This document shows, piece by piece, positions 15,660 through 31,017 of a stretch of DNA of 36,101 nucleotides. Location of the stretch: NCBI GenBank assembly GCA_002868945.1, contig PKTX01000055.1, positions 1 through 36,101 of the forward strand. The letters run 5' to 3'. The notes beneath the pieces are model-generated. The model did not search any database and was not told where the DNA came from. It saw nothing but the letters and a program-made list of their open reading frames with translations. The position numbers and the translations under genes are program-made. Source of the DNA: Desulfobulbaceae bacterium (GTDB lineage Bacteria > Desulfobacterota > Desulfobulbia > Desulfobulbales > SURF-16). Position 1 is the stretch's first letter. Each line of letters opens with the position of its first letter.

Positions 15660-15727
15660 TTTTTTTCACCGAAAAAGGGCTGCCGGTAGAGGGGGCCGGC
15701 CAGGATAAGAACCATCGTACACCCTTA

Positions 15728-15744
15728 TGTTGCATAACGCAACA
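15728..15744. promoter_or_regulatory. Upstream dyad 1 (putative activator site)
   Basis: TGTTGC, ATAAC, GCAACA: perfect 6-bp arms with a 5-nt spacer. The same arms recur at 15814. Its centre lies about 187 bp upstream of the predicted start site of the sigma-54 promoter at 15898 and about 75 bp upstream of the kinase gene, so it could serve both directions. NtrC-type activators bind such paired dyads at -100 to -200. Confidence 0.6.
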
Positions 15745-15813
15745 GCATGTTCGGTAATGAAACGCGCTTGAACTGTATGTTTTCCGGTGGAAAATTTGGT
15801 ATGCCATGGTTTG

Positions 15814-15831
15814 TGTTGCAAATACGCAACA
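15814..15831. promoter_or_regulatory. Upstream dyad 2 (putative activator site)
   Basis: TGTTGC, AAATAC, GCAACA: the same arms as dyad 1 with a 6-nt spacer. The two centres are about 86 bp apart, close to eight helical turns, and this one is near -100 to the predicted transcription start. That is the normal geometry for enhancer sites of sigma-54 activators. Confidence 0.6.
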
Positions 15832-15896
15832 TGGCCGGAAGGACCTCTTCGGAGGTAACTTGTTGAACTTACTAGTATAAAAATTTTTCGGCGCTC

Positions 15897-15912
15897 CGGC
15901 ACGGGAAATGCT
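15897..15912 (+). promoter_or_regulatory. Sigma-54 (-24/-12) promoter
   Basis: CGGCACGGGAAATGCT contains the invariant GG (15898-15899) and GC (15910-15911) exactly 10 nt apart and the CACG that usually follows the GG. Transcription would start near 15923, about 63 nt before the GTG of the UspA-like gene. No minus-strand GG-N10-GC was found in this gap. The neighbouring NtrC-type regulator and the two dyads support the call. The remaining bases of the 326-nt gap show no gene. Confidence 0.7.
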
Positions 15913-15985
15913 GATTGAGGGCGCAGCCATGTGATGAGCATGGATCCGGCAATTTTTCTTTTCAAATGGATCGACAGGGGCATGT

Positions 15986-16405
15986 GTGCGCAGGAAAAAA
16001 GTTGGCAACAAGAAGGTACTCCTGATCACCAACTCCTCTGACCTGGGCGAGGATGTTCTGCGGCACGGCATCAATCTCAGCAAGCGGATGGATGCCGGCC
16101 TTGAGGTTCTCCACCTGGTCACGGCCCCGCAGGCGAAACAGGCCGCCGAGCATTTCCAGGCCCTGGTCGCGGCAATGGAGCCGGCCGAGCCCCTTCCCTA
16201 CAGTCAGTTTGTCGGACAGGGTGAATTTGTCGGCGAGGCCCTTGACTACGCCCGAAACAAACGGAACCTGCTCTGCGTTATTCTCTATCCGGACAGTGAC
16301 GGCGGCCGGGAAAGGCAGGGCAAGGGCCAGAGAAGATTCAAGGAAGTTATGCAAATGTTGAACTGTCCGGTGGTGGTTTACAGCGGCAGTCCAGTCTATC
16401 TGTGA
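15986..16405 (+). CDS. UspA-like small protein
   Basis: 139 aa, GTG start with AGGGG 5 nt before it. The beginning (KKVLLITNSSDLGEDVLRHGINLSKRMDAGLEVLHLVT) has the alternating strand-helix pattern of the universal stress protein fold, and the end (NCPVVVYSG) resembles the final strand of that fold. The ATP-binding G-2x-G-9x-G(S/T) motif of UspA is not evident, so nucleotide binding is doubtful. It is the first gene after the sigma-54 promoter and likely heads the transcript that includes the LCIB-type gene. A signalling or chaperone role toward the complex is possible but unproven. Confidence 0.65.
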   Translation: MRRKKVGNKKVLLITNSSDLGEDVLRHGINLSKRMDAGLEVLHLVTAPQAKQAAEHFQALVAAMEPAEPLPYSQFVGQGEFVGEALDYARNKRNLLCVILYPDSDGGRERQGKGQRRFKEVMQMLNCPVVVYSGSPVYL

Positions 16406-16429: not shown

Positions 16430-16672
16430 GTGAAAGTACTTATCGGCATTACCCAGGATTTAGAGACGGCAAAGAGCGATTTGACCCATAAGTTCAACAG
16501 CTTGGGAAACACCACCGAGGTGGGCCCCTTCAAGTCCAGGGAGGAGGCGGAGAACTGGAAGACCTTTATGATGAAGAGACGCCAGAACTATGAAGAGATC
16601 GCCTCGCAGGCAGCGCCGGCCGAGGATGCCCTCTGGTTTGGTTTCACCGTGGAAAGCCCGGTTCTTCATTAA
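16430..16672 (+). CDS. Small hypothetical protein
   Basis: 80 aa from GTG 16430 (MKVLIGITQDLE). I prefer this start to ATG 16424 because AAGAGG at 16418-16423 abuts the ATG with no spacing but is 6 nt from the GTG. No signal peptide, no membrane segment and no cysteine. The protein has the rhythm of a small alpha/beta protein, with GPFKSREEAENWKTFMM resembling SPOR-like or small cytosolic regulators. No family is recognised. It sits 24 nt after the UspA-like gene and 19 nt before the LCIB-type gene, so it is almost certainly in the same operon. Confidence 0.7.
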   Translation: MKVLIGITQDLETAKSDLTHKFNSLGNTTEVGPFKSREEAENWKTFMMKRRQNYEEIASQAAPAEDALWFGFTVESPVLH

Positions 16673-16691
16673 ACATCAGGGAGTGGCGCCC

Positions 16692-17891
16692 ATGTGGCGC
16701 ACCAGACCAATGCCTCATACATACTTTAAACCAAGTATTATCCGCAAACTGGCGCCCTTTAAGGTGGATGGCCTGGCCATTCCCTATGCCGAGTTTGTCC
16801 CCAAGCTCTACAACCTCTGCATGACTCTGGGGTTTCGCAAGGGCTTGATTATGCCGTCCCGAGCCTTTTGCTCGGACGAAAATCAGGGCTGGCCCATCAT
16901 TCTGCTCACCAAGCATTTCGGCACCTTTCCCTTCAATCATGGGCGGGTGGGCGGTATTGTCGCCATTGATCGGCATGGGCCCCACGCCCATCACGGCGAG
17001 GACTCGGTGATCGTGCAGGCCAGTCATGTGGGCTATGATCCCATCAGCGGCGTCTACGGCAAGTGTACCCGTCCCAAGATGGAGGGTACCTGCATCTCCG
17101 AGTCGTGCGGCAAGATAACCCACGTTATCACCCCCTACCTGGAGCAGTATCACTTTGCCCGGGAGAGGATCTTTCTGCATCGGCACGAGAACGGCACCCA
17201 TCTGATCACGGTCAAGAACTCCTTTATTGATTTTGACTCGCATCCGGTGAAAAACGGCCTGGTCCTGAACCTGGAAAGTATTGTCAAGATCAATGAGAAC
17301 GGCAAGATTCTGCCGGTGACCGCCATCAGCACCAGCCAGACCTATGAGGTGTGTGACGAATTTCGGCGGCGCATTGACGAGAGCGGCTATACCTGGAAGA
17401 CAGGGGAGGGAGAAGGCATCGGCACATATCTCACCGATGATCTTTTCTACTTTCGTGAAGATTTCCATGAGACGGATGAGTCGATCCTGCTGGAGCGCAA
17501 TCTCATTGAATTCATGCCCACCATTGTCACCTCCCGCAATCCGCCGTTGCGGGCGGCCAAGATCAATATCCAGCTGGAGTTTGCCCGTACGGTGGAGTCG
17601 ATTCGGCGCGGCGCCGAGTATGACAACAAGAATCTGCTCTATGTGGCGGGGCTGAATGTCGATCTCTCCGAGTTTGAGGGCCACCCGGCCACCACCTACT
17701 TTGTGCCCTGGGCCGCCCATATCCAGCTCAAGGACGGCACGCCGGTGGAGTACACCCACCCCCTGGAGCAGGAACGCCTCTATGCCTTGCTCATGGAGCA
17801 GAACAGCCTCAATCCCGAGCAGGCGGACCTCAAGGAAGAGATCGGCCGTATGCTGGCCGCACCCCGTTTTGATATCCGGTCGCCCAAATGA
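16692..17891 (+). CDS. LCIB-type (beta-like) carbonic anhydrase family protein
   Basis: 399 aa from ATG 16692 (GGGAG 8 nt upstream). The frame is open further back but that part overlaps the preceding gene. The segment 45-145 has the pattern I associate with the LCIB/LCIC family of beta-type carbonic anhydrases: FCSDEN (C60, D62), FPFNHGRVGGIVA, then QASHVGYDP (H112) and CISESCGK (C139, with C134 nearby), a plausible Cys-His-Cys zinc site with a catalytic Asp. No signal peptide or membrane segment, so it is cytoplasmic or membrane-peripheral. The C-terminal 250 residues are extra to the core and not recognised. It lies between the sigma-54-driven small genes and the Hyf/Ehr genes, which suggests work with that complex. 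Function is inferred, not shown. Confidence 0.65.
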   Translation: MWRTRPMPHTYFKPSIIRKLAPFKVDGLAIPYAEFVPKLYNLCMTLGFRKGLIMPSRAFCSDENQGWPIILLTKHFGTFPFNHGRVGGIVAIDRHGPHAHHGEDSVIVQASHVGYDPISGVYGKCTRPKMEGTCISESCGKITHVITPYLEQYHFARERIFLHRHENGTHLITVKNSFIDFDSHPVKNGLVLNLESIVKINENGKILPVTAISTSQTYEVCDEFRRRIDESGYTWKTGEGEGIGTYLTDDLFYFREDFHETDESILLERNLIEFMPTIVTSRNPPLRAAKINIQLEFARTVESIRRGAEYDNKNLLYVAGLNVDLSEFEGHPATTYFVPWAAHIQLKDGTPVEYTHPLEQERLYALLMEQNSLNPEQADLKEEIGRMLAAPRFDIRSPK

Positions 17892-18028: not shown

Positions 18029-18054
18029 GCCCTGTTCCACCATGTGGACAGGGC
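18029..18054. other. Second hairpin before hyfB
   Basis: GCCCTGT (18029-18035) pairs with ACAGGGC (18048-18054) and inner CCAC with GTGG over a CAT loop, leaving one bulged T. No T-run follows. With the hairpin at 17959 it forms a structured leader ahead of the Ehr genes. No -24/-12 or clear -35/-10 promoter is visible in the gap. Confidence 0.45.
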
Positions 18055-18151
18055 GGCGGCAAGAGGTGCGCCATGGTCGGCCTGCATGAGAAAAAAACGC
18101 CCCGGCGCCAGGATCGGGGCGACAGCCTATAACAATGTGGAGGAAGGAGAG

Positions 18152-20110
18152 ATGGACACCCTGTTTGTGTCGTTTGTGGTAATTCTGGCGGGAGGAGTGA
18201 TGGCACTCCTGCTGGCCCGCCGGTTTAACCTGATGAAGCTGGTAACGGTTGCCGTTATGTCGTGTGGTTGCGGGATAGGCCTGGTAAAGAGCCTCTCCTT
18301 GCTCCTGAGTCAGGCGCCCACCGCAGAAAAGAGCTGGGCCTGGCTCCATTTTTTTGAGCTCACCTTTAAGGTGGACAGTATAGCCCTCTTTTTTCTGATC
18401 CCTCTGTTTGCCGTGCCGCCCCTGGCGCTGTTCTACAGCCTGCAGTACATGGCGGATCAGCAAAAGAGGGTGCGGGTGGCGGTTAACTACTTCTTCTTTG
18501 CGATACTGGTGGCCTCCATGGCCCTGGTGGTCATGGCGGCCAATATGATTACCTTTGCCCTGGCCTGGGAGATCATGTCTCTCTCCTCCTTTTTTCTGGT
18601 GGTCTTTGACTATCAGGTCAAGGCCAACCGCCAGGCCGGCTATCTCTACTTCATCTTTGCCCAGGCCGGCGCCATGTTTCTCTTTGCCGCTTTTGCCCTG
18701 CTTTACAGCCACACGGCAAGCTTTGATTTTGCCGCCTTCGCTTCGGTCCCGGAAAAGGCCAAACTGCTCATCTTCCTGATCGCCTTTATCGGTTTCGGCT
18801 CCAAGGCGGGTATTTTCCCCCTGCATATCTGGTTGCCCAAGGCCCATCCGGCCGCCCCCAGTCATATTTCGGCCATCATGTCCGGTGTGATGATCAAGAT
18901 GGGTATCTATGGAATTTTCCGTATCTATCTACTGCTGGACGCCGCCACCCCCATTATCGGTCAGGTGGTCCTGGTTACCGGTATGATCACCGGCGTCCTC
19001 GGCGTGGTCTACGCCCTGGCCAAGCAGGATATCAAACAGCTCCTGGCTTACAGTAGTGTGGAAAATATCGGCATTATTCTCATTGGTCTGGGTATCGGCA
19101 TGGTGGGTGTCTCGGAGCAGAATCAGGCCATGGCCTTTTTCGGTTTTGCCGGGGCCATGCTGCACCTCTTCAACCACTCCATCTTCAAGTCCCTGCTCTT
19201 TATGGGGGCCGGCGCCGTTCTGCACCAGGCCAAGACGAAGAATATCGACCAGCTCGGCGGTCTGATGAAACGGATGCCCATTACCGGTCGCACCTTTCTG
19301 GCCGGTTCCGTGGCTATTTCCGGCCTGCCGCCCTTCTGCGGTTTTATCGGTGAATTCCTCATCTATTACGGGGCCTTTCATGGCATCAACAACCAGCGTT
19401 TCTCCTTTATCCTGGCCATCCTTGCCATTGTCTCCCTGGCTGTCATCGGCGGCCTGGCCACGGCCTGTTTTACCAAGGTGGTGGGCCTGGCCTTCCTGGG
19501 TGAACCGCGCACCGAACAGGCTGCCCGGGCCACCGAAGCGGCCTGGGGCATGGGCCTGGTGATGATCGTCATGGCCGCGGCCTGCCTGGTGATGGGGGTG
19601 GTGCCGGAGCCCTTTATCCGCCTGGCCTTTGCCGGGATCAGGGATGTCGGCTTTACGGCCGGCTATGACACGCAGGCCTTTTTGGCTGTGGTCCGCCAGC
19701 TCTCCCAGGCCATTCTCATTTTCCTGGCCCTTCTGGCGCTGGTCAGCCTGCTGCGCAAGGTGCTTTACCGCGGCAAGGAGATCGGCAGTGGCTCCACCTG
19801 GGGCTGCGGCTTTACCCAACCCACGGTGCGCATGCAGTACACAGGCACATCATATGCCGCTGAGATTATAGATTTTTATCGGCCATTTGTGCCGGTCAGA
19901 CGCCTCTACAGCGGCATCAGCCGGATCTTTCCCGGCAAGACCACCTGGGAGACCGGTGTCGACGATGTGGCGGAGATCAACTACATGCAGCGGCTGATCA
20001 AGCCGCTCCTGCAGTTCTTAAACAGTCTGCGCTGGATTCAGCACGGCAACATTCAGCTCTATATCGCCTATATCATTGTCGCCATTATCGTCCTGCTCCT
20101 CTTTTTGTAG
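18152..20110 (+). CDS. hyfB: Hyf/Ehr-type complex antiporter-like subunit (HyfB/NuoL-like)
   Basis: 652 aa from ATG 18152, chosen over an upstream in-frame start because AAGGAG precedes it. About 14-16 membrane helices. The proton-channel module is typical of NuoL/M/N: E140 in AWEIMSL (TM5), K218 in GSKAGIFPLHIWLP (TM7), then K230 and K249. A long C-terminal extension follows helix 14 (TWGCGFTQPTVRMQYTGTSY), a feature of HyfB/HycC-type subunits, and ends with one more helix. It moves ions across the inner membrane as part of the complex encoded by the next five genes. It is the first gene of the hyfB-C-E-F-G-I-like run. Confidence 0.88.
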   Translation: MDTLFVSFVVILAGGVMALLLARRFNLMKLVTVAVMSCGCGIGLVKSLSLLLSQAPTAEKSWAWLHFFELTFKVDSIALFFLIPLFAVPPLALFYSLQYMADQQKRVRVAVNYFFFAILVASMALVVMAANMITFALAWEIMSLSSFFLVVFDYQVKANRQAGYLYFIFAQAGAMFLFAAFALLYSHTASFDFAAFASVPEKAKLLIFLIAFIGFGSKAGIFPLHIWLPKAHPAAPSHISAIMSGVMIKMGIYGIFRIYLLLDAATPIIGQVVLVTGMITGVLGVVYALAKQDIKQLLAYSSVENIGIILIGLGIGMVGVSEQNQAMAFFGFAGAMLHLFNHSIFKSLLFMGAGAVLHQAKTKNIDQLGGLMKRMPITGRTFLAGSVAISGLPPFCGFIGEFLIYYGAFHGINNQRFSFILAILAIVSLAVIGGLATACFTKVVGLAFLGEPRTEQAARATEAAWGMGLVMIVMAAACLVMGVVPEPFIRLAFAGIRDVGFTAGYDTQAFLAVVRQLSQAILIFLALLALVSLLRKVLYRGKEIGSGSTWGCGFTQPTVRMQYTGTSYAAEIIDFYRPFVPVRRLYSGISRIFPGKTTWETGVDDVAEINYMQRLIKPLLQFLNSLRWIQHGNIQLYIAYIIVAIIVLLLFL

Positions 20111-20197
20111 GGCGCAGAGGTTACGTCACCCATTGTCATTGCCGCCGCCGGGTCCTGGGCCCGGTTGGGCGGCAGCAACATAAACTCGAGGTCTGAG

Positions 20198-21115
20198 ATG
20201 GAATCCATACTCTCATTGTGCTTTGCAATTCTGATCGCCCCCCTTCTGCCCGCCGTTATTCAGAAGGTAAAGGCCTTTTTTGCCGGGAAACAGGGGCCGC
20301 CCCTGCTGATAAACTACTACACCATGATCAAGCTCTTCCGGAAGGGCTCGGTCTACAGTACCAGTACAAGCTTTGTCTTTCGAATGGGACCGGTGGTCGG
20401 CTGCGTCACCAGCCTTATGATGCTGCTCTTTTTTCCCCTGGCCGGCATCAAGCCGCTTTTCTCCTTTCACGGTGATGTGCTCATCCTCTTCTATCTCATG
20501 GGGCTCGGCCGCTTTTTCACCATTCTGGCGGCCTTGGACACGGCCTCGCCCTTTGAGGGCATGGGGGCGGCCCGCGAGGCCTTTTTCTCCACCCTGGCCG
20601 AGGCCACTGTCTTCGGTATTCTCATTCTCTTTTTCCGCATCACCGGCAGCCTCAGCTTTGCGGAATTTTTCTCGGGCAGGCATGTCATCTCTCTGAGCAG
20701 CGAGCATGGCGCCCTCCTTCTTCTGGTTATTGTCGCCCTCTACATCGTCATGCTCACGGAAAACTCCCGGGTGCCGGTGGATGATCCCGCCACCCATCTT
20801 GAGCTGACCATGATCCACGAGGTGATGATTCTGGACCACAGCGGCCCGGATCTGGCTCTCATCGAGCTGGGGGCCTGGTTCAAGCTCCTCTTTTATTCGG
20901 CCTTTCTCTCCATGCTCATTGAGCCCTTTCACCTGGAGAGCGCCCTGCTCAACAGCCTGCTCTTTTATGCCGTGGTCTGTTTTATCTACATCACCATCGG
21001 CATGGTGGAGTCCATTACCGCCAGATATAAGATGAACATGGTACCCAAGTTCGTCCTGACACCCTTTGCTCTGGTCTTTTTTGTCACCATTCTCACCATG
21101 GAGCTGGTCAAATGA
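20198..21115 (+). CDS. hyfC: Hyf/Ehr-type complex subunit HyfC (NuoH-like)
   Basis: 305 aa from ATG 20198, supported by GAGG, although the frame is open to 20165. Eight predicted membrane helices. The NuoH signature regions are present: LDTASPFEGMGAAREAFFS and the loop ENSRVPVDDPATHLELTM with EVMILDHSG, which contact the peripheral arm and couple redox chemistry to ion movement. It overlaps hyfE by 4 nt (ATGA). In complex I this subunit forms the quinone chamber floor. In group-4 hydrogenases the equivalent subunit has the coupling role without quinone. Confidence 0.9.
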   Translation: MESILSLCFAILIAPLLPAVIQKVKAFFAGKQGPPLLINYYTMIKLFRKGSVYSTSTSFVFRMGPVVGCVTSLMMLLFFPLAGIKPLFSFHGDVLILFYLMGLGRFFTILAALDTASPFEGMGAAREAFFSTLAEATVFGILILFFRITGSLSFAEFFSGRHVISLSSEHGALLLLVIVALYIVMLTENSRVPVDDPATHLELTMIHEVMILDHSGPDLALIELGAWFKLLFYSAFLSMLIEPFHLESALLNSLLFYAVVCFIYITIGMVESITARYKMNMVPKFVLTPFALVFFVTILTMELVK

Positions 21116-21765
21116 TTGTTCTTTCTGATTTTTTGCTCTCTCTGACCCTGTTGTCGGTCCTTCTTTCCCTGGCCTCCAATCGGCTCATGGCCCTGGTCAA
21201 GATCATGGCCTTTCAGGGGATTGTCGTCTCGCTTATTCCTCTGGTGCTGGAGCAGCATCAGGACCTGGCCATGGGCTCCATTCTCATGCTGCAGGTCATG
21301 ATTCTTATCAAGGGCTTCCTGATCCCCGGCTTTATTTACATGGCCCTGACAAAGATCAAGATCAAGCGCGAGATCGAACCCATCATCGGTTATCACGCCT
21401 CGGTGTTTGCCGGTCTCTTCTTCATCCTGCTCTCCGCCTTTATTACGGATCGGCTTGATATCAGCCTGCCAGGCGGCCAGGTTCTGTTGATGATCACCGC
21501 CATCACCACCCTGGCGGCAGGGCTTTTTCTGCTCATGAGCCGCCGCAAGGCCATTACCCAGGTCATCGGTTACCTGATGATGGAAAACGGCATTTATCTG
21601 TTCGGCACGGCCCTGGCCAAGGAGACCCATACCCAATATCTGGTGGAGTTCGGCGTCCTGCTCGATCTCCTGGTGGGCATCATGGTCATGGGCATCGTCC
21701 TTCACAACATCAACAGCACCTTTGATGATGTGGATACCGCCCTGCTCGGCCAGTTAAAGGATTGA
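21112..21765 (+). CDS. hyfE: Hyf/Ehr-type complex subunit HyfE (NuoK-like)
   Basis: 217 aa, about six membrane helices. The C-terminal half carries a NuoK-like helix with a buried glutamate in LMMENGIYLFGTAL, the expected acidic residue of the NuoK lateral channel. The N-terminal half is extra, as in HyfE. It starts inside the hyfC stop codon, implying translational coupling. A hyfD-like gene, found between hyfC and hyfE in E. coli hyf, is absent here. A 108-nt gap with weak hairpins (about 21830 ATGGA/TCCAT) separates it from hyfF. Confidence 0.88.
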   Translation: MIVLSDFLLSLTLLSVLLSLASNRLMALVKIMAFQGIVVSLIPLVLEQHQDLAMGSILMLQVMILIKGFLIPGFIYMALTKIKIKREIEPIIGYHASVFAGLFFILLSAFITDRLDISLPGGQVLLMITAITTLAAGLFLLMSRRKAITQVIGYLMMENGIYLFGTALAKETHTQYLVEFGVLLDLLVGIMVMGIVLHNINSTFDDVDTALLGQLKD

Positions 21766-21873: not shown

Positions 21874-23301
21874 ATGTTAGAGTTCACCTGCCTCATCCCA
21901 CTGTTTACCGGGATTATCGCCATGTTTATGCCGGCCAGGCTGGGTCGGATAATCCTGCTGGTAACGGCTGTTCTCCACCTGCAGCTCACTGTCTTGGGCT
22001 GGTTCGGCAAGGTCACCCCGTCTTTGCCCGGCTATTTTGCGGCGCCGCCGGACGGCCTGCTGGTGCTGCTTGTCACCTCCTTTATCTTTCTGTTTATCTC
22101 CGTCTATGCCGTCTTTTATATGCGGGAGACGGAGATGGCCAGTGAGCCGCACTATATCGGCGCCACCCTCTTCTTTCTGGCCTCCATGTCCATGGTGGCC
22201 CTGGCCGATCACCTGGTGGTCCTGTGGATCGCCATTGAGGCCACCACCCTGATGAGCGCGCCGCTTATCTTCCTGACCCGTTCCAAGTCAGCCCTGGAGG
22301 CCACCTGGAAATATGTGCTCATCTGTTCGGTGGGTATTGCCCTGGCCCTGCTCGGCTGTTTTTTCATTGTCATGGCCATGGCCAGCAATCATCTGGATGT
22401 GGGCATCACCTTCTCCTCCCTGGGCCAGGTGGCCGAGCAGCTTGACCCGGTCTGGCTCAAGGCCGGCTTTATCTTTCTTGTCATCGGCTATGGCACCAAA
22501 ATGGGCCTGGCCCCCATGCATACCTGGCTGCCGGACGCCCACAGCGAGGCGCCGAGCCCGGCCTCGGCCCTGCTGTCCGGGGCGCTGCTCAACTGCGCCT
22601 TTCTGGGAATCTATCGCAGCCATCAACTGCTCTACCAGGCCGGTCTGGGCGACTTTTCCAGCCGGATCCTCATCGGCTTTGGGCTGCTTTCCATGCTTGT
22701 CGCGGCAATCTTCATGTATAACCAGACCGGTTATAAGCGGCTGCTGGCCTACTCCAGTATCGAGAATATGGGTGTTATCGCCTTTGGGATCGGCATCGGC
22801 GGCCTGGCCACCTATGGTGCCATGCTGCACCTGATCCACCACTCGCTGATCAAGTCGGCCCTCTTTCTCTCCTCGGGGAATATCCTGCTGGGCTACGGCA
22901 GTAAATTGATCAACAAAACCGGCAACATGGCCAAGCTCTTGCCCAAGACATTCGCCCTCTTCATGGCCGGTTTTGCCGGTATCTCCGGCTTCCCGCCCTT
23001 TGGCATCTTTGTCAGTGAGCTGCTTATTATCATCGGCGCCTTTCAGCAGGGCAATACCATCAGCGTCACCATCTTTATCTTTGCCCTGATTCTGGTCTTT
23101 GCCGGGGCCGCGCGTCTGGTGATGCGCATGTGTTTCGGCAGAAACGACGAAGAGATTCTGGTGCCGGAAAGCTATGGCCGGCTGCTGCCGCCTCTGGGGC
23201 TTTTGCTCTCTTCAGTGCTTCTCTGTGTCTGGTTGCCTGACACTCTCTATGAAAAAATTCTTTCGGCCATTGCCACTATCGGAGGTGGGATACATGGATA
23301 A
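21874..23301 (+). CDS. hyfF: Hyf/Ehr-type complex antiporter-like subunit HyfF (NuoN/M-like)
   Basis: 475 aa, about 14 membrane helices. The channel residues are visible: E122 in WIAIEATTL (TM5), K209 in GTKMGLAPMHTWLPDAHSEAPSP (TM7/8). It has no C-terminal extension, unlike hyfB. AAGGTAAGG lies before the start. The stop overlaps hyfG by 8 nt. Together hyfB and hyfF give two ion-pumping units. Confidence 0.9.
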   Translation: MLEFTCLIPLFTGIIAMFMPARLGRIILLVTAVLHLQLTVLGWFGKVTPSLPGYFAAPPDGLLVLLVTSFIFLFISVYAVFYMRETEMASEPHYIGATLFFLASMSMVALADHLVVLWIAIEATTLMSAPLIFLTRSKSALEATWKYVLICSVGIALALLGCFFIVMAMASNHLDVGITFSSLGQVAEQLDPVWLKAGFIFLVIGYGTKMGLAPMHTWLPDAHSEAPSPASALLSGALLNCAFLGIYRSHQLLYQAGLGDFSSRILIGFGLLSMLVAAIFMYNQTGYKRLLAYSSIENMGVIAFGIGIGGLATYGAMLHLIHHSLIKSALFLSSGNILLGYGSKLINKTGNMAKLLPKTFALFMAGFAGISGFPPFGIFVSELLIIIGAFQQGNTISVTIFIFALILVFAGAARLVMRMCFGRNDEEILVPESYGRLLPPLGLLLSSVLLCVWLPDTLYEKILSAIATIGGGIHG

Positions 23302-24799
23302 GCTGCTTCATATACGTAACGGCGAAAAGGTCAACCGGGCCGAGATCCCCTGCCTGCCCTTCAGCCAATTCCGTCAAACCCTGCTCGATTTTGCCGAGGA
23401 GGGCGGTCAGGTTGTCCAGTTCTTTGCTTACCAGGAGAGCGACGCCGTCAAGCTGCTGGCCGTGCTGCGCAGCGACAGGCTCTTTGTCACGGGCTGCGAG
23501 GCGCCGCAGAGCTTTGACTCCCTCACGGCGGTCAGTGAAAAATTTCATATGTTCGAGCGGGAAATAGGCGAGCAATACGGCCTCAAGGCCGAGGGCCATC
23601 CCTGGCTGAAGATGGTGCGCTATCACAAGAATTACAGCGGGACGGCCGATGTCTTCGGCAATGACTATAGTCAGGATATCCCCGGCAACTATCCCTACTT
23701 CACGGTGGAGGGTGAAACGGTCCACGAGGTGGCGGTGGGACCTGTCCATGCCGGTATCATCGAACCGGGCCATTTCCGTTTTCAGTGCTGCGGCGAACGG
23801 GTTTTTCACCTGGAGATCCAGCTCGGCTACCAGCATCGCGGCGTGGAAAAATTGTTGCAATCCGTCCCCCTGAAGCGTCTGCCCATCATTGCCGAGACCA
23901 TTGCCGGTGACACCACCATCGGCCACGGCCTCTGCCAGGCCCAGGCCTTGGAGGCCCTGGCTGACCTGCAGGTGGACGACGGCGCCAGGGTGGTGCGCAC
24001 CATTGCCCTGGAGCTGGAAAGGATCGCCAACCATATCGGTGATCTCGGCGCCCTGAGCCTGGATGTGGCCTTTAATCCGCCGGCCGCCTATTTCGGCCGG
24101 ATCAGGGGGGAATATCTCAATCTCAGCCAGATTCTGGGCGGCAGCCGTTTCGGCCGCGGCCTGGTGAGGCCGGGAGGGGTCACCCATGTCATGGGCGAGG
24201 AGCAACGGCGGTTGCTCAGTGACAAGCTGGCGGAATTGACGCCGGAGGTGGAGCACGTCAACGAGCTTATCTTCGGTTCTCCCAGTGTCCAGGCCCGTTT
24301 TGACAACACCGGCACGGTACGTCGGCAAGATGCCGAAAAGATCGGCCTGGTGGGCTATGCCGGCCGGGCCAGCGGTCTTGCCTATGACGCCCGGGTCAGC
24401 TTTCCCAGCGAGTGCTATGCCGAACTGCCGGCCAACCGTAATCTAAAGACCGAAGGCGACGTCTGTTCCCGGGCCACGGTGCGCCGGGAGGAGATCATGC
24501 ACTCCACCGGCTTGATCAATCTGCTGCTGGCCCGCAGCCAAGAGGCCAAGAGCTATACGCCGGAGGAGCTCAACCTGGCGCCGCAATCGCTGGTGGTCAC
24601 CCTTAATGAGGGCTGGCGCGGCGAGGTATCGCACTGCATCCTCACCGATGACCAGGGCAAGATTATGCGCTACAAGGTCAAGGATCCCTCCTTCCACAAC
24701 TGGACAGGTCTGGCCCTGGCCCTGCGTGATGAGGGAATCTCCGATTTCCCTCTCTGCAATAAGAGCTTCAATCTCTCCTATTGCGGATTTGACCTATAA
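23294..24799 (+). CDS. hyfG: Hyf/Ehr large subunit (NuoC-NuoD fusion) lacking [NiFe] ligands
   Basis: 501 aa from ATG 23294 (GGAGGT upstream, 8-nt overlap with hyfF). A NuoC-like 30-kDa domain (about 1-125) is fused to a NuoD/hydrogenase large-subunit domain (about 140-501, with VGPVHAGIIEPGHFRF and LEIQLGYQHRGVEKLL). Group-4 hydrogenases have CxxC in an ERxCGIC motif and a C-terminal CxxC. Here the first site reads ETIAGDTTIGH, with A204 and T207 in the cysteine positions. The C-terminus reads NLSYCGFDL, with S495 and G498 in them, and only stray cysteines at 488 and 497. Hydrogenase activity is therefore not expected. This is the hallmark of Ehr (hydrogenase-related) complexes, whose substrate is unknown. 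Confidence 0.88.
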   Translation: MDKLLHIRNGEKVNRAEIPCLPFSQFRQTLLDFAEEGGQVVQFFAYQESDAVKLLAVLRSDRLFVTGCEAPQSFDSLTAVSEKFHMFEREIGEQYGLKAEGHPWLKMVRYHKNYSGTADVFGNDYSQDIPGNYPYFTVEGETVHEVAVGPVHAGIIEPGHFRFQCCGERVFHLEIQLGYQHRGVEKLLQSVPLKRLPIIAETIAGDTTIGHGLCQAQALEALADLQVDDGARVVRTIALELERIANHIGDLGALSLDVAFNPPAAYFGRIRGEYLNLSQILGGSRFGRGLVRPGGVTHVMGEEQRRLLSDKLAELTPEVEHVNELIFGSPSVQARFDNTGTVRRQDAEKIGLVGYAGRASGLAYDARVSFPSECYAELPANRNLKTEGDVCSRATVRREEIMHSTGLINLLLARSQEAKSYTPEELNLAPQSLVVTLNEGWRGEVSHCILTDDQGKIMRYKVKDPSFHNWTGLALALRDEGISDFPLCNKSFNLSYCGFDL

Positions 24800-24839: not shown

Positions 24840-25583
24840 ATGTTAAAAGTATTGAAAAACAGGTTGGAGCAGGGGCATCGCACCTCGCGATATCCCAAGG
24901 AGCAGATTCATCTCTACAAGAGATTCCGCGGCCTGCCCAAGGTCAACAGCAGCTGCCGGGCCGAGCTGGTGCAGCAGTGCGCCGCCGCCTGCCCGCAGGA
25001 TGCCATCATGGCGGATGCCTGCCGGATCGATCTGGGCCGCTGCGTGTTCTGCGGCCTCTGTGAGACCCTGTCCGCCGGCGAATTTGTCACCTTCAGCCAG
25101 AATTTCGAGATGGGGACGGCGCAGCGCAATGATCTTTTTACCAGTGGTGATCTGCCTGCCCTGGCCGACCACGCCCAAAAGCACTTCAAGAAACTCTTTG
25201 GTCGCTCCCTGCAGTTACGCCAGATTTCAGCCGCCGGTTGCAATGCCTGTGAGGCGGATACCAATGTGCTCAACACGCCCTTTTTTGATCTGTCGCGTTT
25301 CGGTATCCAGTTCGTGGCCTCGCCGCGCCATGCCGACGGCATCCATGTGACCGGACCGATTTCCGAAAATATGCGGGCCGCCACCCTGGAAACCTTTGCA
25401 GCGGTGCCCAGCCCCAAGGTGGTTATTGCCAGCGGCGCCTGCGCCATCTCGGGCGGTCCCTTTCACGGCAGTGAGGATATTGTCGGCGATCTCAACAGTA
25501 TCATTCCGGTGGATCTCTACATCCCCGGCTGCCCGCCGCACCCCCTCACCACCCTGCATGCCCTGCTCAACTATTTCAAGTAA
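24840..25583 (+). CDS. hyfI: Hyf/Ehr small subunit (NuoB-like) with ferredoxin-like N-terminus
   Basis: 247 aa. The C-terminal half is NuoB-like with all four cluster ligands: C134 and C137 (AAGCNACEAD), C201 (ASGACAISGG) and C231 (IPGCPPHPL), so the proximal [4Fe-4S] cluster should be present. The N-terminal 80 residues look like a ferredoxin. One complete half remains, C68, C71, C74 with C51-Pro, but the first CxxCxxC is replaced by scattered C39, C47, C61, so probably one cluster is left. HyfH-type and HyfI-type proteins thus seem merged. It is the electron-handling partner of the ligand-less large subunit. Confidence 0.87.
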   Translation: MLKVLKNRLEQGHRTSRYPKEQIHLYKRFRGLPKVNSSCRAELVQQCAAACPQDAIMADACRIDLGRCVFCGLCETLSAGEFVTFSQNFEMGTAQRNDLFTSGDLPALADHAQKHFKKLFGRSLQLRQISAAGCNACEADTNVLNTPFFDLSRFGIQFVASPRHADGIHVTGPISENMRAATLETFAAVPSPKVVIASGACAISGGPFHGSEDIVGDLNSIIPVDLYIPGCPPHPLTTLHALLNYFK

Positions 25584-25592
25584 GCCGTAACC

Positions 25593-26141
25593 ATGAGTTG
25601 TCTGGTGCAATGTCGGAAGGATCTGGGCCGCCTCCTCCATCTGGCCCGGCAGGTGGAGCTGCGGCCCGCGCCGCTGGTCAGCGAGCATGCCGTCATGGCG
25701 GAGATCGCGGCCTCCTTTGCCGGGAATGGTGGCAGCACTCTTCTCTATGTGGTGGGGGAGGATGGTGTTCTCAAGGGCGCTATCAGCCTGGCAGACATCC
25801 TGCGCTACCTCTTTTTCTATCAGCATGATCCCTACTCGCCGCCGGCAACCCTGCGGCAACTGGCCCGGACTGAAAGCGCTGCAGGCTTCATGCGCCGGGC
25901 CCTGAGCGTCAGGATGACCGAAGAGGTGGTGGATGTTCTTGAGAAAATGACGGCAGCAGCCCTTACTGAATGCGCGGTGGTGGATGACAACGACCGGCTC
26001 CTGGCCCGGCTGAGCATGACCGACCTGGTCCACTATTACCGGCAGGTGCAGAATCGGTGCAGCGATGCGCCCGAAGAGTGGTTGCCGCCGGGAGTCAGCG
26101 GCGCAGCTCCAACTGCACCGGACAGTGGTCGGAACCCATAA
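25593..26141 (+). CDS. CBS-domain-pair protein
   Basis: 182 aa, cytoplasmic. Two CBS motifs are visible, about 20-70 (HAVMAEIAASF...LLYVVGEDGVLKGAISLADIL) and about 105-150 (VVDVLEKMTAAALTECAVVDDNDRLLARLSMTDLV). Between them is a longer linker as in CBS pairs that bind adenine nucleotides. It starts 10 nt after the hyfI-like stop, so it is probably the last gene of the Ehr operon and may report energy charge to the complex or to the carbonic anhydrase system. Its 3' end overlaps the convergent nth-xth gene by 47 nt. The Shine-Dalgarno is weak. Confidence 0.75.
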   Translation: MSCLVQCRKDLGRLLHLARQVELRPAPLVSEHAVMAEIAASFAGNGGSTLLYVVGEDGVLKGAISLADILRYLFFYQHDPYSPPATLRQLARTESAAGFMRRALSVRMTEEVVDVLEKMTAAALTECAVVDDNDRLLARLSMTDLVHYYRQVQNRCSDAPEEWLPPGVSGAAPTAPDSGRNP

Positions 26142-27540
26142 TGTCGCTTAAAATGGCGGCGCCCTTGAGCCGCTGCCTGCTGCCGGCATCAACAATGAAG
26201 TAATCGATCCGCCAGCCGATATTCTTGCGCCGGGCGTTAAAGCGGTAGCTCCACCAGGTGTATTGGCCCGGCTCTTGATTGAAGAGACGGAAGGTGTCGA
26301 CATAGCCGGAGGCCAGAAAGGTGTCGAGCCAGGCCCGTTCCTCGGCGCTGAATCCTGGATTCTTTTCGTTGGCCTTGGGGTTGGCCAGGTCGATCTCCTT
26401 ATGGGCCACATTGAGATCGCCGCACAGCACCACGGTTTTTTGGGCGGTCAGTTCATCGACAAAGTCGTGCAGGGCCCTGTTAAAGGCGAGCTTGTAGTCA
26501 AGGCGGCTCAGGCCGGGCTGGGCATTGTGGAAATAGGCATTGACCAGGAAAAAGGAGTCAAATTCAAGGGTAAGCAGGCGTCCTTCGCTGTCAAACTCGT
26601 CGCGGCCCAGACCGGTGATGACCCGGATCGGTTTGAGCCGCGTATAGACGGCCAGGCCCGAGTAGCCCTTTTTCCGGGCAGCGGCGAAATAGGCCTCGTA
26701 GCCGTTCATCCCGGTAAGCTCTGCCGAGAGTTGTTCGGGGTGGGCCTTGGTCTCCTGGATGGCCATGATGTCAGGCCCCAGCCCCTGAACAATATCGACA
26801 AAGCCTTTTTTTGCCGCGGCCCGGATGCCGTTGACATTCCAGGAGATGAGGCGCAGAGTCGGGCGCTCCTTGTGGCGTGGCCGCGGCAGGCGGCGCGGCG
26901 TCACCCCCAGCTTGGGGCAATAGGCGGCCAGTACACATCGGTCACAGTGGGGGCCCACCGGTTTGCAGGTCCCCTGGCCAAAGGCGACCAGGATGGAGTT
27001 CACCGTCAACCAATATTTTTGCGGCAGTTTGCGACGCAGGGCCATTTCCGTCTGCTCCGGGGTTGTGGTCTCCACATAGCCCCAGATATTCATGATGCGG
27101 TGGACATGGGTATCCACGCAGATGGCCGGCTTGCCAAAGGCCACGGCCAGGACAAGATTGGCGGTCTTGCGGCCGACGCCGGGCAGGCTGAGAAGATCGT
27201 CAAGCTCGGTGGGTACCTTGCCGCCGAAGGTGTCCAGGGCGGCCGGCAGGGCTGCCAGATAGCGGGCCTTATTCTTAAAAAAGCCCACCGGATAGATCAG
27301 TGTGCGGATCTCCTCCTGGCTGAGGGCGGCAAGCGCCGTTGCCTCCGGCGCCTTTGCAAAGAGGCGGCTGCAGGCCTTGGCCGTGGTTTCATCCTTGGTG
27401 CGGGCCGACAGAATAGTGGCCACCAGCACCTTGAAGGGATCCTTGCTCTGCACGGCTATGAGGTCCACCACCGGCACCTGGTAGGAGGCCACCTCCTGCT
27501 TGAGGAGAGCGAGAAAGAGGTCGATATTTATGTCTGGCAT
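26095..27540 (-). CDS. nth/xth: Fused endonuclease III - exonuclease III
   Basis: 481 aa in one uninterrupted frame. Residues 1-212 are an endonuclease III: HhH LPGVGRKTA (119-127) with the catalytic K125, catalytic D143 in CVDTHVHRI, and the [4Fe-4S] ligands C192, C199, C202, C208 with exact C-x6-C-x2-C-x5-C spacing. Residues about 228-481 are an exonuclease III/AP endonuclease: ISWNVNGIRA, catalytic E263 in IQETK, GDLNVAH, WRIDYFIV and the terminal SDHCPV. A DNA glycosylase/AP lyase and an AP endonuclease would thus act from one polypeptide in base excision repair. The linker (about 212-228) is short and basic. A fused bifunctional enzyme is unusual. It lies convergent to the CBS gene. Confidence 0.9.
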   Translation of the reverse strand: MPDINIDLFLALLKQEVASYQVPVVDLIAVQSKDPFKVLVATILSARTKDETTAKACSRLFAKAPEATALAALSQEEIRTLIYPVGFFKNKARYLAALPAALDTFGGKVPTELDDLLSLPGVGRKTANLVLAVAFGKPAICVDTHVHRIMNIWGYVETTTPEQTEMALRRKLPQKYWLTVNSILVAFGQGTCKPVGPHCDRCVLAAYCPKLGVTPRRLPRPRHKERPTLRLISWNVNGIRAAAKKGFVDIVQGLGPDIMAIQETKAHPEQLSAELTGMNGYEAYFAAARKKGYSGLAVYTRLKPIRVITGLGRDEFDSEGRLLTLEFDSFFLVNAYFHNAQPGLSRLDYKLAFNRALHDFVDELTAQKTVVLCGDLNVAHKEIDLANPKANEKNPGFSAEERAWLDTFLASGYVDTFRLFNQEPGQYTWWSYRFNARRKNIGWRIDYFIVDAGSRQRLKGAAILSDIMGSDHCPVQLELRR

Positions 27541-27644: not shown

Positions 27645-27672
27645 TTGACTTTCCCGGTCAGAGCGCTAAGAC
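27645..27672 (+). promoter_or_regulatory. Putative sigma-70 promoter of the beta-carbonic anhydrase
   Basis: TTGACT (27645-27650) and TAAGAC (27667-27672) with a 16-nt spacer. The -10 is only a fair match. It overlaps a small dyad GCGCTA-AGAC-TAGCGC (27663-27678). A TTGACA also occurs at 27744-27749 but lacks a convincing -10. The rest of the 352-nt gap 27541-27892 holds no gene. Confidence 0.4.
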
Positions 27673-27712: not shown

Positions 27713-27892
27713 AACCATAGGCATCGACTCTGCCATAGTTTTTTTGACAATGCCCCGGTTTGAGGTGAATAGTGGTCATTCTTTTATTCTTGGCTTCACC
27801 GGGCCTTCTCAAGGTCTTATCAGCCGATTCCATCTCTTTGATGTGACCGACTTGTTGCGAAGCCGTAACGCCAGCAATAGTGAGGAAGTATC

Positions 27893-28489
27893 ATGGGAGT
27901 AGTTTCTTCAGTAATGCCCAATAGTGACCAAGCGCTTGCCATGCTTATGGAGGGTAACAGGCGTTTTGTCAATACCCAGGCAACCCATCCCCACCAAGAC
28001 CCTGAGTATCGTATTACCCTCGGCGGCGGGCAGATGCCCTTTGCCGCTATTCTGGCTTGTGCTGATTCACGGGTGCCACCCGAGGTGGTTTTTGACGAAG
28101 GTCTCGGTGATCTTTTCGTGGTGCGGGTCGCCGGCAATATTATCAATGATCAGCTCCTGGGTAGCCTGGAGTATGCCGCCGCCCACCTGAACACCCCCCT
28201 GATAATGGTCATGGGGCATACACGGTGTGGCGCCATTGGTGCCGTGGCCAGCGGCGCCGAGCTTGAGGGCCATATCGCCTCCCTGGCTCCGGCCATTCAG
28301 CCGGCCGTGGACAAGGTTCGGGGCCGGGAAGGAGATCTTACCGACAATGCCGCCAAGGAGGTGGCCCGCATGACCGCTGATGAGCTGCGCAATTCAGAGC
28401 CGGTGCTGGCCGGTCTGGTCAAGGCGGGCAAACTGAAGGTTGTGCCGGCCTTTTATGACCTTGAAACCGGTGTTGTGGAGCTCTTGTAG
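27893..28489 (+). CDS. Beta-carbonic anhydrase
   Basis: 198 aa, the usual length. Zinc ligands and catalytic residues are all present: C56, D58 and R60 in CADSR, and H109 and C112 in GHTRCG. It hydrates CO2 to bicarbonate in the cytoplasm, with no signal peptide. It precedes a SulP-type transporter by 314 nt, a pairing common for bicarbonate transport (BicA-like or fused CA-SulP proteins). A strong-arm palindrome and a fair sigma-70 promoter lie upstream. AGTGAGGAAGT precedes the start. Confidence 0.95.
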   Translation: MGVVSSVMPNSDQALAMLMEGNRRFVNTQATHPHQDPEYRITLGGGQMPFAAILACADSRVPPEVVFDEGLGDLFVVRVAGNIINDQLLGSLEYAAAHLNTPLIMVMGHTRCGAIGAVASGAELEGHIASLAPAIQPAVDKVRGREGDLTDNAAKEVARMTADELRNSEPVLAGLVKAGKLKVVPAFYDLETGVVELL

Positions 28490-28803
28490 AAGGGCGTGGC
28501 TGACACGCTGCTGTTTACATTTATTTTGATCTAAAATCTCTGTCCGGGGATTTGACCCGCCACACCCTGCCGACCTGCGAGGTCCTTTCTGCAGAGTTGT
28601 CGGAGGTCAGAACCAGGCTGCCGCCTGCAAACCGTGCAACAACGCTGCAGGGGATAAAGCAGGGATTTGGATGCAACCGTGATGCCTGTTCAGAAGTGAG
28701 GGAGGATCTCTTTTTTGCAGAGATCAAAGATCGTTTCTGAGTGAGCATCACCCGACTTCCGCCCGGTCTTGTTCCGGGCATATTTATGATGAGGAAAGAA
28801 AAA
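28490..28803 (+). other. Leader gap between carbonic anhydrase and SulP gene
   Basis: 314 nt without a convincing gene. It holds small hairpins GACCT-GCG-AGGTC (about 28575-28587) and GATCTC-ttttttgca-GAGATC (28705-28725), the second about 80 nt before the SulP start. No clear -35/-10 pair was found, so the transporter is probably cotranscribed with the carbonic anhydrase or has its own weak promoter. Confidence 0.4.
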
Positions 28804-31017
28804 ATGCTGACGAAAGTGTTGCCGTTTATAGATTGGTTCAAAGACTATGACGGCGGTAAGTTCAAAATCGACCTGATTGCCGGTATTACGGTGGCCATGG
28901 TCCTTATCCCGCAATCCATGGCCTATGCCCAGCTGGCCGGCCTGCCGGCCTATTACGGCCTCTATGCCGCATTTTTGCCGCCCATGGTGGCGGCACTGTT
29001 TGGTTCCAGTCGCCAGCTGGCGACCGGGCCGGTGGCGGTTGTCTCCCTGATGTCCGCCGCCTCCCTGGAACCGCTAGCCACGGCCGGCGGTCCGCAGTTC
29101 ATTGCCTATTCCATTGTCCTGGCCTTAACCGTGGGTGTTTTTCAGCTATCCCTCGGTGTGCTGCGGCTCGGTCTGGTGGTCAACTTCCTCTCCCATCCGG
29201 TGATCAACGGTTTCACCAATGCGGCGGCGATTATCATTGCCTCTTCCCAGTTCTCCAAGTTTTTCGGGGTCTATGTGGACAAGGCGCCCCACCATTACGA
29301 GACCATGATGCGCGTTGCTCAGGCGGCCATGGATTACACCCATATTCCGACGCTGCTTTACGGAGTCGGCGCCGTGGCTCTCATGGTTGTCTTGCGCCGG
29401 ATCAACCCGCGTATCCCCAATGTCCTGGCGGCGGTTGCCGTGACCACCCTGATTTCCTGGGGTACCGGCTTTAATAATGATGCCCATGTTGATCTCAACA
29501 CCATTGCGGTGGATGGCTTTGCCGAGAAAATCACGGAGTTCAACAATGTTGTCGCGCACATCAAGAGCCTGGGCGAAAAACGTGCCGCTCTGAACCAAAG
29601 GGTGGAAGAGCAGAAGAAGCATGATGCCGAAAGCGGCCACGGCGCCAAATCAGTCGCCCTCATCGGTCTGGAGGCCGAGGTTGCCATGCTCACCACCCGC
29701 ATGGAGGAGGCCAAGCATGAGGCCCACCTTCTCCGCACCGATCTGCGCGACATGAAGTTCGAGGCCGTCCGGAGCGGTGAGGGTGATATGGCCCGGTACA
29801 CCTTTTATGTCAAGGGCGCCATCCCGCCGGCGGTCAATGCCGATGGCAAGACCTGGCGGTTGAAGGTGGGTAATACCACCCTTGACACCGACAATCTCAA
29901 GATGATGGGTGGTGGCGCCATTGTCGGCGAGATTCCCAAGGGACTCAGTTTTGCCGTGCCCGGCACGGTCAAGGATCCGATGACCGGCGAAAAGATCGGC
30001 GAAAGCCTGCTCAGCCTCAAGACCTTCCTGAAGCTGCTGCCCACCGCAATTATTATCTCCCTGCTCGGCTTCATGGAGGCCATTGCCATTGCCAAGGCCA
30101 TGGCCGCTAAAACCGGTCAGAAGCTTGATCCGAACCAGGAGCTTATTGGTCAGGGTCTTGGTAATATTGTCGGTTCATTCGGCGGTTCCTACGCGGTTTC
30201 CGGTTCCTTTTCCCGTTCCGCCGTCAACCTGCAGGCCGGCGCGGTTTCCGGTATCTCTTCGGTGGTTACCTCCCTGGTGGTGGTCTTGACCCTCTTTTTC
30301 TTCACGCCGCTGCTTTACCATCTGCCCCAGGCCACCCTGGCCGCGGTTATCATGATGGCGGTTATCGGTCTTGTCAACACCAAGGGCTTTGACCATGCCT
30401 GGAAGGCCCAGTGGTATGACGGCTTTATCTCTATCCTGAGCTTCTGCGTCACCCTCTATTTTGCCCCCCATCTTGACAAGGGCATCATGGTCGGTGTGGC
30501 CCTGTCCATGGCCGTGTTCCTCTATAAGTCCATGCGGCCGGTGGTGGCCTCCCTCTCCCTCAACGAGGACAAGGTCTTGAAGAGTGCTGAACATTATCGT
30601 CTCAAGGGTTGTCGGCACGTGTCCGTGGTTCGTTTTGACGGACCCCTCTTCTTTGCCAATGCCAGCTATCTGGACGAGCAGGTTGCCAAGTTCCGCACCA
30701 TGCATCCTGATCTGCGTTATATCCTGCTGGATGCCAGGGGTATTAACGACATGGACGCCTCCGGTGAAGAGGCCCTGGCCATGCTGGTCCGACGGGTGCG
30801 CAGCGCCGGTCTCGGTTTTGCCATGAGCGGTACCAAGGGCCAGATTGTCGCAGTAATGCAGCGTACCGGGCTTTACAGTGAGATTGGTGCCGAGAATTTC
30901 TACGCGGATACCGAGGCTGCGGTCCGGGCTATTCTCGAAGAGATTCATGCAGATACCGATCTGCCGGCCGACGGCTGTGAAAAGTGCCCCCTGACCCGCT
31001 TTATTCCTGTTTCATAA
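28804..31017 (+). CDS. SulP family anion transporter with coiled-coil insertion
   Basis: 737 aa from ATG 28804 (GAGGAAAG upstream, open frame to 28741). SulP transporters move sulfate or bicarbonate with Na+ or H+. The N-terminal LIPQSMAYAQLAGLPAYYGLYAAFLPP signature is canonical, and the C-terminal part (about 595-715) is a STAS domain. Between the seventh or eighth helix (LISWGTG, about 221) and the GEIPKGL motif (about 376) an extra 147 residues (224-370) contain a charged coiled coil (HIKSLGEKRAALNQRVEEQ) and a beta-rich stretch. Typical SulP proteins have 500-600 aa. The C-terminus ends with a CEKC motif. Position after a carbonic anhydrase favours bicarbonate as substrate, but sulfate is possible. 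Confidence 0.87.
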   Translation: MLTKVLPFIDWFKDYDGGKFKIDLIAGITVAMVLIPQSMAYAQLAGLPAYYGLYAAFLPPMVAALFGSSRQLATGPVAVVSLMSAASLEPLATAGGPQFIAYSIVLALTVGVFQLSLGVLRLGLVVNFLSHPVINGFTNAAAIIIASSQFSKFFGVYVDKAPHHYETMMRVAQAAMDYTHIPTLLYGVGAVALMVVLRRINPRIPNVLAAVAVTTLISWGTGFNNDAHVDLNTIAVDGFAEKITEFNNVVAHIKSLGEKRAALNQRVEEQKKHDAESGHGAKSVALIGLEAEVAMLTTRMEEAKHEAHLLRTDLRDMKFEAVRSGEGDMARYTFYVKGAIPPAVNADGKTWRLKVGNTTLDTDNLKMMGGGAIVGEIPKGLSFAVPGTVKDPMTGEKIGESLLSLKTFLKLLPTAIIISLLGFMEAIAIAKAMAAKTGQKLDPNQELIGQGLGNIVGSFGGSYAVSGSFSRSAVNLQAGAVSGISSVVTSLVVVLTLFFFTPLLYHLPQATLAAVIMMAVIGLVNTKGFDHAWKAQWYDGFISILSFCVTLYFAPHLDKGIMVGVALSMAVFLYKSMRPVVASLSLNEDKVLKSAEHYRLKGCRHVSVVRFDGPLFFANASYLDEQVAKFRTMHPDLRYILLDARGINDMDASGEEALAMLVRRVRSAGLGFAMSGTKGQIVAVMQRTGLYSEIGAENFYADTEAAVRAILEEIHADTDLPADGCEKCPLTRFIPVS

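Follow-up and report, generated by a model that had tools for sequence, protein, structure and literature searches.

Introduction

Sigma-54 promoters under regulators of the NtrC/ZraR/AtoC type share a common layout, in which a protein with a receiver domain, an AAA+ domain carrying GAFTGA and a Fis-type HTH is paired with an adjacent HAMP kinase, and dyads about 100-190 bp from the start precede a -24/-12 promoter. The locus described here, in a 36,101-nucleotide contig of a Desulfobulbaceae bacterium (the window), has the same layout. It differs from those systems in having its own dyad, TGTTGC-N5/6-GCAACA, and a Usp-LCIB-Ehr operon as the target. Its regulator is no ZraSR/AtoSC equivalog and scores far under the curated cut-offs (AtoC 407 of 714 bits, ZraR 383 of 760).

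DVU0539 and DVU0946 of D. vulgaris are sigma-54 response regulators with apparent autoregulation whose targets include transport operons (PMC3333781; PMC4641369). In the reporter experiments described in the first of these, both gave transcription from pDVU0542, while DVU0539 lowered pDVU3025 (PMC3333781). The motif groups outlined in the 2015 study have TGT and ACA half sites separated by 9, 11 or 12 bp (PMC4641369); compared by description, our dyad A reads as TGT-N11-ACA and dyad B as TGT-N12-ACA. The difference lies in the targets, which are given there as lactate and transport operons.

As for the target, Ehr complexes are described in PMC6349859 as hydrogenase-related, without the Ni-Fe residues, and suspected of coupling redox to charge movement. 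The vectorial carbonic anhydrases DAB2 and NDH-1MS, as summarised in PMC13144422, resemble the present operon in that a beta-carbonic-anhydrase-like protein is encoded with complex-I-like membrane subunits. Here, however, an LCIB-type protein stands with Ehr subunits and not with DabA/DabB, and the likeness, known here from the genes, concerns the target and not the switch. PMC5744179 suggests sigma-54 control near RuBisCO, which is another system. Our literature search found no paper on the regulation of an LCIB/Ehr cluster or on LCIB together with Ehr, which is a weak negative with subscription journals mostly outside its coverage.

Results

The control region and its sites

Dyads A and B and a sigma-54-like site lie in the gap that separates the kinase start (15659) from the GTG of the first plus-strand gene (15986) (Table 1). 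The initial annotation had placed two TGTTGC-N5/6-GCAACA dyads about 86 bp apart here, and they are present with centres 86.5 bp apart. Exact matches to TGTTGC-N4..8-GCAACA occur in the 36,101 bases at A and B only (2 against 0.02 in shuffles), and exact dyads with a spacer of 5-6 are confined to this gap in the whole 3.7 Mb genome. The proposed positions near -100 and -187 are also arithmetically right against the predicted start. The regulator sites nevertheless number three, since a weaker site, A', had been overlooked. In the window it matches 8 of 12 arm positions and is weak alone. A genome-wide regulon defined by dyads alone was dropped as too noisy, because TGTTNC-N5/6-GNAACA hit 6-15 places per genome in six genomes against 1-8 for the reversed control.

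The sigma-54 site has GG at 15898-15899 and GC at 15910-15911, giving GG-N10-GC with CACG after GG, exactly as annotated. Against TGGCACG-N4-TTGCW it has two mismatches (C before GG; ATGC for TTGC), within the sigma-54-dependent class. Alone it is not significant, as the window holds 5 sites with at most two mismatches where 8.0 are expected. Since the site is at chance level by itself, the case rests on comparison, that is, on its conservation at a fixed place in all seven orthologous loci. The genome has its own rpoN (PF04552, 218 bits, contig C55).

Table 1. Coordinates of the control sites and genes in the window
Feature	Position	Strand	Remarks
NtrC-family response regulator, 451 aa	12910-14265	-	REC (D55), AAA+ with GAFTGA at 220, Fis-type HTH with GIDRVSLWRK
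Sensor histidine kinase, 465 aa	14262-15659	-	TM - helical periplasmic bundle - TM - HAMP - HisKA (H257) - HATPase
Putative -10 of kinase-regulator operon, TACGAT	15714-15719	-	TA-x-x-x-T hexamer at 17 bp in 7/7 clade-1 loci; predicted
Dyad A (distal regulator site)	15728-15744		TGTTGCATAACGCAACA; spacer 5; centre near -187
Putative -35 of kinase-regulator operon, TTGCGT	15737-15742	-	inside dyad A; predicted
Site A'	15748-15764		TGTTCGGTAATGAAACG; degenerate dyad 20 bp from A
Dyad B (proximal regulator site)	15814-15831		TGTTGCAAATACGCAACA; spacer 6; centre near -100
Sigma-54 (-24/-12) promoter	15897-15912	+	CGGCACGGGAAATGCT; predicted start near 15923; kept in 7/7 loci, 72.5-75 bp from B
Usp-like protein, first operon gene	15986-16405	+	PF00582 20.5 bits, cut-off 24; orthologue in 7/7 clade-1 loci, window included
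LCIB-like (beta-carbonic-anhydrase-like) protein	16590-17891	+	PF18599 20.4 bits, cut-off 25
HyfB/NuoL-like membrane subunit	18044-20110	+	first codon probably further in
NuoH-like subunit	20165-21115	+	
HyfE-like subunit	21112-21765	+	
HyfF/NuoN-like subunit	21874-23301	+	
NuoC/D-like large subunit, Ehr type	23174-24799	+	no CxxC
NuoI/NuoB-like fused subunit	24840-25583	+	
CBS-domain protein, possible last operon gene	25593-26141	+	
Sigma-70-type promoter of beta-carbonic anhydrase	27645-27672	+	conserved in 7/7
Beta-carbonic anhydrase	27893-28489	+	orthologue with pair in 7/7 genomes

The kinase and the regulator

The divergent NtrC-type activator and its kinase are both there. The regulator belongs to the bEBPs by its AAA+ domain (PF00158, 227.5 bits; Walker A SGESGTGKE at 172, GAFTGA at 220) and by a receiver (PF00072) and Fis-type HTH (PF02954) above cut-off; its closest solved relative is 4l4u, an NtrC-family protein. 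The periplasmic part of the kinase is predicted to be a helical bundle (about residues 33-165, pLDDT mostly 80-93) with a conserved LExRRxEKNxxLY segment. It matched no Pfam family at E 5 save two sub-threshold, chance-like matches. The best 50 matches listed in the fold search were kinase proteins, chiefly aligned through the kinase core, and were uninformative on the sensor ligand.

The same genome carries two tandem kinase-regulator pairs on contig C32 (locus L118, 5649-11461), whose regulators are 48% and 43% identical to that of the window and which have TGTTGC/TGTTAC-type dyads nearby. Cross-talk between these pairs and the pair in the window is possible.

The target operon

We assumed that the operon is continuous across gaps of up to about 250 bp. 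Its LCIB-like protein stays below the PF18599 gathering score (20.4 bits against 25) and found no PDB match by sequence up to E 1. In the fold search against the PDB the seven best matches were all LCIB-related (PtLCIB4, 6kfs 'CCM related protein', LCIB and LCIC), though weak (E 1.4e-3 to 0.17) and obtained with a model in which residues 86-136 fall below pLDDT 50. C94, D96, H146 and C173 are invariant in 24 aligned sequences; C94, H146 and C173, with the nearby D96, are candidates for the zinc ligands (Cys/His/Cys with Asp).

HyfB/E/F-like, NuoH, NuoCD and NuoB-like subunits, together with a large subunit without CxxC, assign the membrane complex to the Ehr type, and the lack of CxxC means that it is no NiFe hydrogenase. 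By analogy with the vectorial carbonic anhydrases, our hypothesis is that the LCIB-Ehr complex may be a vectorial CO2-hydrating system.

Two neighbouring genes are recorded here as side observations. A SulP-type transporter gene lies at 28741-31017 in the window, and ten LCIB loci that lack the adjacent pair (L005, L007, L009, L011, L016, L024, L030, L032, L034 and L039) also have one close to LCIB; this proximity suggests a functional tie of LCIB to anion or bicarbonate transport. On the minus strand, at 26095-27540, one ORF fuses HhH-GPD (endonuclease III-like) and endonuclease/exonuclease/phosphatase (exonuclease III-like) domains.

Conservation in the orthologous loci

Scanning with the LCIB-like protein gave 35 loci, five of which (L012, L013, L015, L022 and L023) have orthologous kinase, regulator and Usp genes in the same divergent order (kinase 58-61%, regulator 74-76% identity). 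The kinase search of the order (193 genomes) returned five further genomes at 58-61%, four of them being the contigs of L012, L013, L015 and L023 and one being new (L042). Together with the window this makes seven distinct genomes, which we call clade 1.

All seven share one layout, in which A is followed by A' 20 bp on and by B at about 87 bp, with TGGCACrrGAtATGCw 72-75 bp past B. In an alignment of the seven gaps, conservation is confined to the sigma-54 site, the three regulator sites and a short block on the kinase side of A, and the rest of the gap diverges. Dyad A is kept as GTTkCATwwyGCAACA and site A' as GTTC...TGmAAC in all seven. The clade-1 gaps hold 16 dyads with at most two mismatches (0.4 in shuffles), and each has its sigma-54 site (7/7 against 0.1 in shuffles). 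The search of related genomes upstream of orthologues thus recovered the same dyads in every genome with the orthologous pair, and the refuting outcome named by the initial annotation, non-conserved dyads, did not occur: dyads, spacing and sigma-54 site are kept in 7/7 and in a second, more distant clade.

The kinase frame of L015 (G105:C113) is interrupted by a single in-frame TAG. Its best match starts at residue 15, which places the stop codon probably close to the beginning of the frame, and translation from further downstream, an error in the assembly or decay of the gene could each account for it.

A second clade uses the same code before other operons

The next-best kinase matches, mostly at 40-46% identity, include 24 loci from eight families (clade 2, L046-L069; 11 of the 24 from genus g35), with kinases 41-46% and regulators 60-65% identical to those of the window. 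Dyads, A-B and B-promoter distances and recognition helix are those of the window. The operon is different and, in the loci examined for it, consists of Usp - small membrane protein - TauE/SafE - double Usp, or of CitMHS with NhaD-like transporters (as in L075; 'NhaD-like' is our interpretation of a CitMHS match), and not of Usp-LCIB-Ehr. A Usp-like gene is near on the opposite strand in 22 loci, and at least two dyads with at most two mismatches lie in the gap in 23. The 24 gaps hold 56 dyads (1.9 in shuffles), and 20 have a sigma-54 site within 420 bp (0.35 in shuffles). In the other four the site is further on (L062), weaker (L055), not scored (L048) or absent (L049); L049 faces another gene and has no dyad pair.

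The geometry holds over both clades. As picked by the script, the centres of A and B are 85-90 bp apart in 29 of the 31 loci; the correct pair in L065 is 87 bp apart, and L049 has no pair. From the centre of B to GG we measured 72.5-78 bp in 26 loci and 64.5 in one, with three loci not scored and one lacking the pair. Both clades keep the recognition helix IDRVSLWRK, the L050 sequence ending after it.

A composite pattern of A and B (at most two mismatches each) and the sigma-54 site at set distances matched 24 times in 1,044,743 bases on both strands. Of these, 23 were checked, and each falls in the intergenic region in front of this kinase; the remaining match is that of the window itself. 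L122 duplicates L015, which leaves 23 distinct loci. The scanned DNA includes the loci on which the pattern was trained, and the informative part is the absence of matches elsewhere. A stricter dyad-pair pattern gave 35 distinct places in 32 of the 193 genomes, against 0 for the reversed control. The kinase is adjacent in 23 of the 30 places examined as loci. Among the others, L146 has the dyad pair beside the regulator and L129, L150 and L156 beside a related one (43-45%), while L130 and L151 have neither kinase nor regulator nor the Usp/sigma-54 arrangement nearby. L131 (G126:C146) has a Usp-like gene downstream of the dyad pair and a perfect sigma-54 site. Neither kinase nor regulator was detected in the 3.1 kb covered there, and the gene is possibly a target controlled in trans.

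The control follows the regulator

We looked for sigma-54 sites with at most two mismatches in the 700 bp preceding the LCIB gene. Such a site occurs in 5 of the 35 LCIB loci, and these are exactly the loci with the pair (5/5 against 0/30 without it; among the 30, the upstream DNA of L009 and L033 is short, and some LCIB genes are not first in their cluster). L014 and L027, which are without the pair, have a single dyad each. A search for the kinase at 1e-80 in 26 genomes of the LCIB loci without the pair gave no match; the positive control for this query is its success in the 193-genome search. Since the loci without the pair are also without the sites, the control belongs to the regulator and not to LCIB/Ehr generally. 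The proposal of a sigma-54 switch for the LCIB/Ehr cluster therefore stands at the pair-bearing loci, but not as a general property of LCIB/Ehr, as the same code also precedes other operons.

A putative kinase-facing promoter overlaps dyad A

The odd conserved block between A and the kinase would be explained by a kinase-facing -10. The putative TACGAT hexamer lies 17 bp from TTGCGT within A, and TA-x-x-x-T is found at equal spacing in all clade-1 loci. The generic sigma-70 scan did not list this promoter and most clade-2 loci are without it; in most loci of that clade a different conserved block, GGACTTT-like on the kinase strand, follows A directly in place of a clear -10. Because the -35 would lie inside A, occupancy of A probably lowers transcription of the kinase-regulator operon. 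We consider it an even chance that the regulator represses itself through this sigma-70-like promoter. The dual behaviour of DVU0539 in the reporter data (PMC3333781) is of the sort proposed here for the regulator at A.

Beta-carbonic anhydrase as a possible second target

A beta-carbonic anhydrase orthologue (E <= 1e-60) is present in 7/7 genomes with the pair and in 0/6 LCIB genomes without it, a count that covers matches at this threshold, with other carbonic anhydrases outside it. Its promoter, TTGAC/TTGCA-N16/17-TA(A/T)GA(A/C), is conserved in all seven. In four of them (L112, L113, L114 and L116, some closely related and so not independent) a dyad with at most two mismatches starts 7-10 bases after the -10; the background rate of such dyads is 0.013 per 100 bases. 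The window, L115 and L117 have no dyad just after the -10. The site at 27853-27870 of the window (two mismatches) was not counted, as it lies about 180 bp past the promoter, unlike in the relatives. A protein bound just after the -10 would be expected to block transcription of the gene. These sites are suggestive of beta-carbonic anhydrase as a second target of the regulator, but do not establish it.

Discussion

The sites, their fixed geometry, their conservation and their co-occurrence with this regulator are direct observations. From these sequence comparisons, the control region is a genuine, strongly conserved sigma-54 enhancer region, most likely read by the neighbouring regulator. We put at roughly 0.8 the probability that it works as an NtrC-type enhancer switch, in which the adjacent regulator acts on A, A' and B to drive the sigma-54 promoter of the Usp-LCIB-Ehr operon. 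The membrane kinase would sense a periplasmic cue and phosphorylate the regulator. Regulator dimers would then bind the three sites, assemble an AAA+ ring, loop to the sigma-54 polymerase and open the promoter. The transcript would start at about 15923 and run through the Usp-like and LCIB-like genes into those of the Ehr-type complex. An occupied A may at the same time lower kinase-regulator transcription through the -35 inside it.

The dyads could instead be read by a paralogous regulator from contig C32, or by both, so that the adjacent pair would not be the sole input. In favour of this, IDRVSLWRK is also present in the paralogue regulators (46-48% identity), and TGTTGC/TGTTAC-type dyads lie at their loci; in D. 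vulgaris, moreover, the paralogous DVU0539 and DVU0946 bind one site (PMC3333781). Several of the paralogue dyads, however, have TGTTAC arms, and perfect paired dyads at the fixed spacing occur once in the genome, beside the adjacent pair, just as the sites are absent from LCIB loci without it. We regard this alternative as unlikely. The locus had also been called a self-contained switch: it does hold its own regulator, sites and promoter together, but self-containment may not hold everywhere, given the beta-carbonic anhydrase dyad in 4/7 genomes and the paralogous pair with the same helix in the same genome.

It is less probable still that the sites mainly repress, with the regulator shutting off the sigma-70 promoter of its own operon while the sigma-54-like site is a fossil or weakly used. 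The kinase-facing -10, kept 17 bp from an arm of A in 7/7 loci, and the departure of the window's sigma-54 site from the consensus at two positions would fit such a role. Against it, GGCAC-GA-ATGC is (near-)invariant in all seven loci at a near-constant distance, B is conserved though far from the kinase promoter, and the regulator retains GAFTGA. RNA hairpins, terminators or chance palindromes are very improbable: 6-bp stems with loops of 5-6 bases could fold, but no T run follows the dyads, A' and several orthologous arms are imperfect while their positions and sequence, as opposed to pairing, are kept, and the pattern is tied to one regulator family.

For the enhancer switch, the parts are those of a standard NtrC-type device, and the wiring appears to be undescribed. 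The novelty lies in the target, in a family-wide code in which three sites keep a fixed spacing and, possibly, in the connection with beta-carbonic anhydrase. One doubtful extension is that a single sensor pair swaps carbonic anhydrase strategies: when active, it would use sigma-54 to induce the energy-coupled LCIB-Ehr complex for CO2/bicarbonate and, in several relatives, would also shut off beta-carbonic anhydrase through the operator just after its sigma-70 promoter. If true, the Desulfobulbales would possess a switch for inorganic-carbon or pH homeostasis, derived from an enhancer cassette that drives other ion transporters elsewhere in the order.

The finding gives uncharacterised kinase-regulator pairs of one family an order-wide cis-regulatory code, made up of three sites at fixed spacing and a sigma-54 promoter. 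With this code, experiments on binding, regulon and inducing signal can be designed directly, and knowing the condition that induces the operon would hint at the role of LCIB-Ehr. One branch of the code is tied to this uncharacterised complex, which may handle CO2/bicarbonate in anaerobic sulfur-cycle bacteria.
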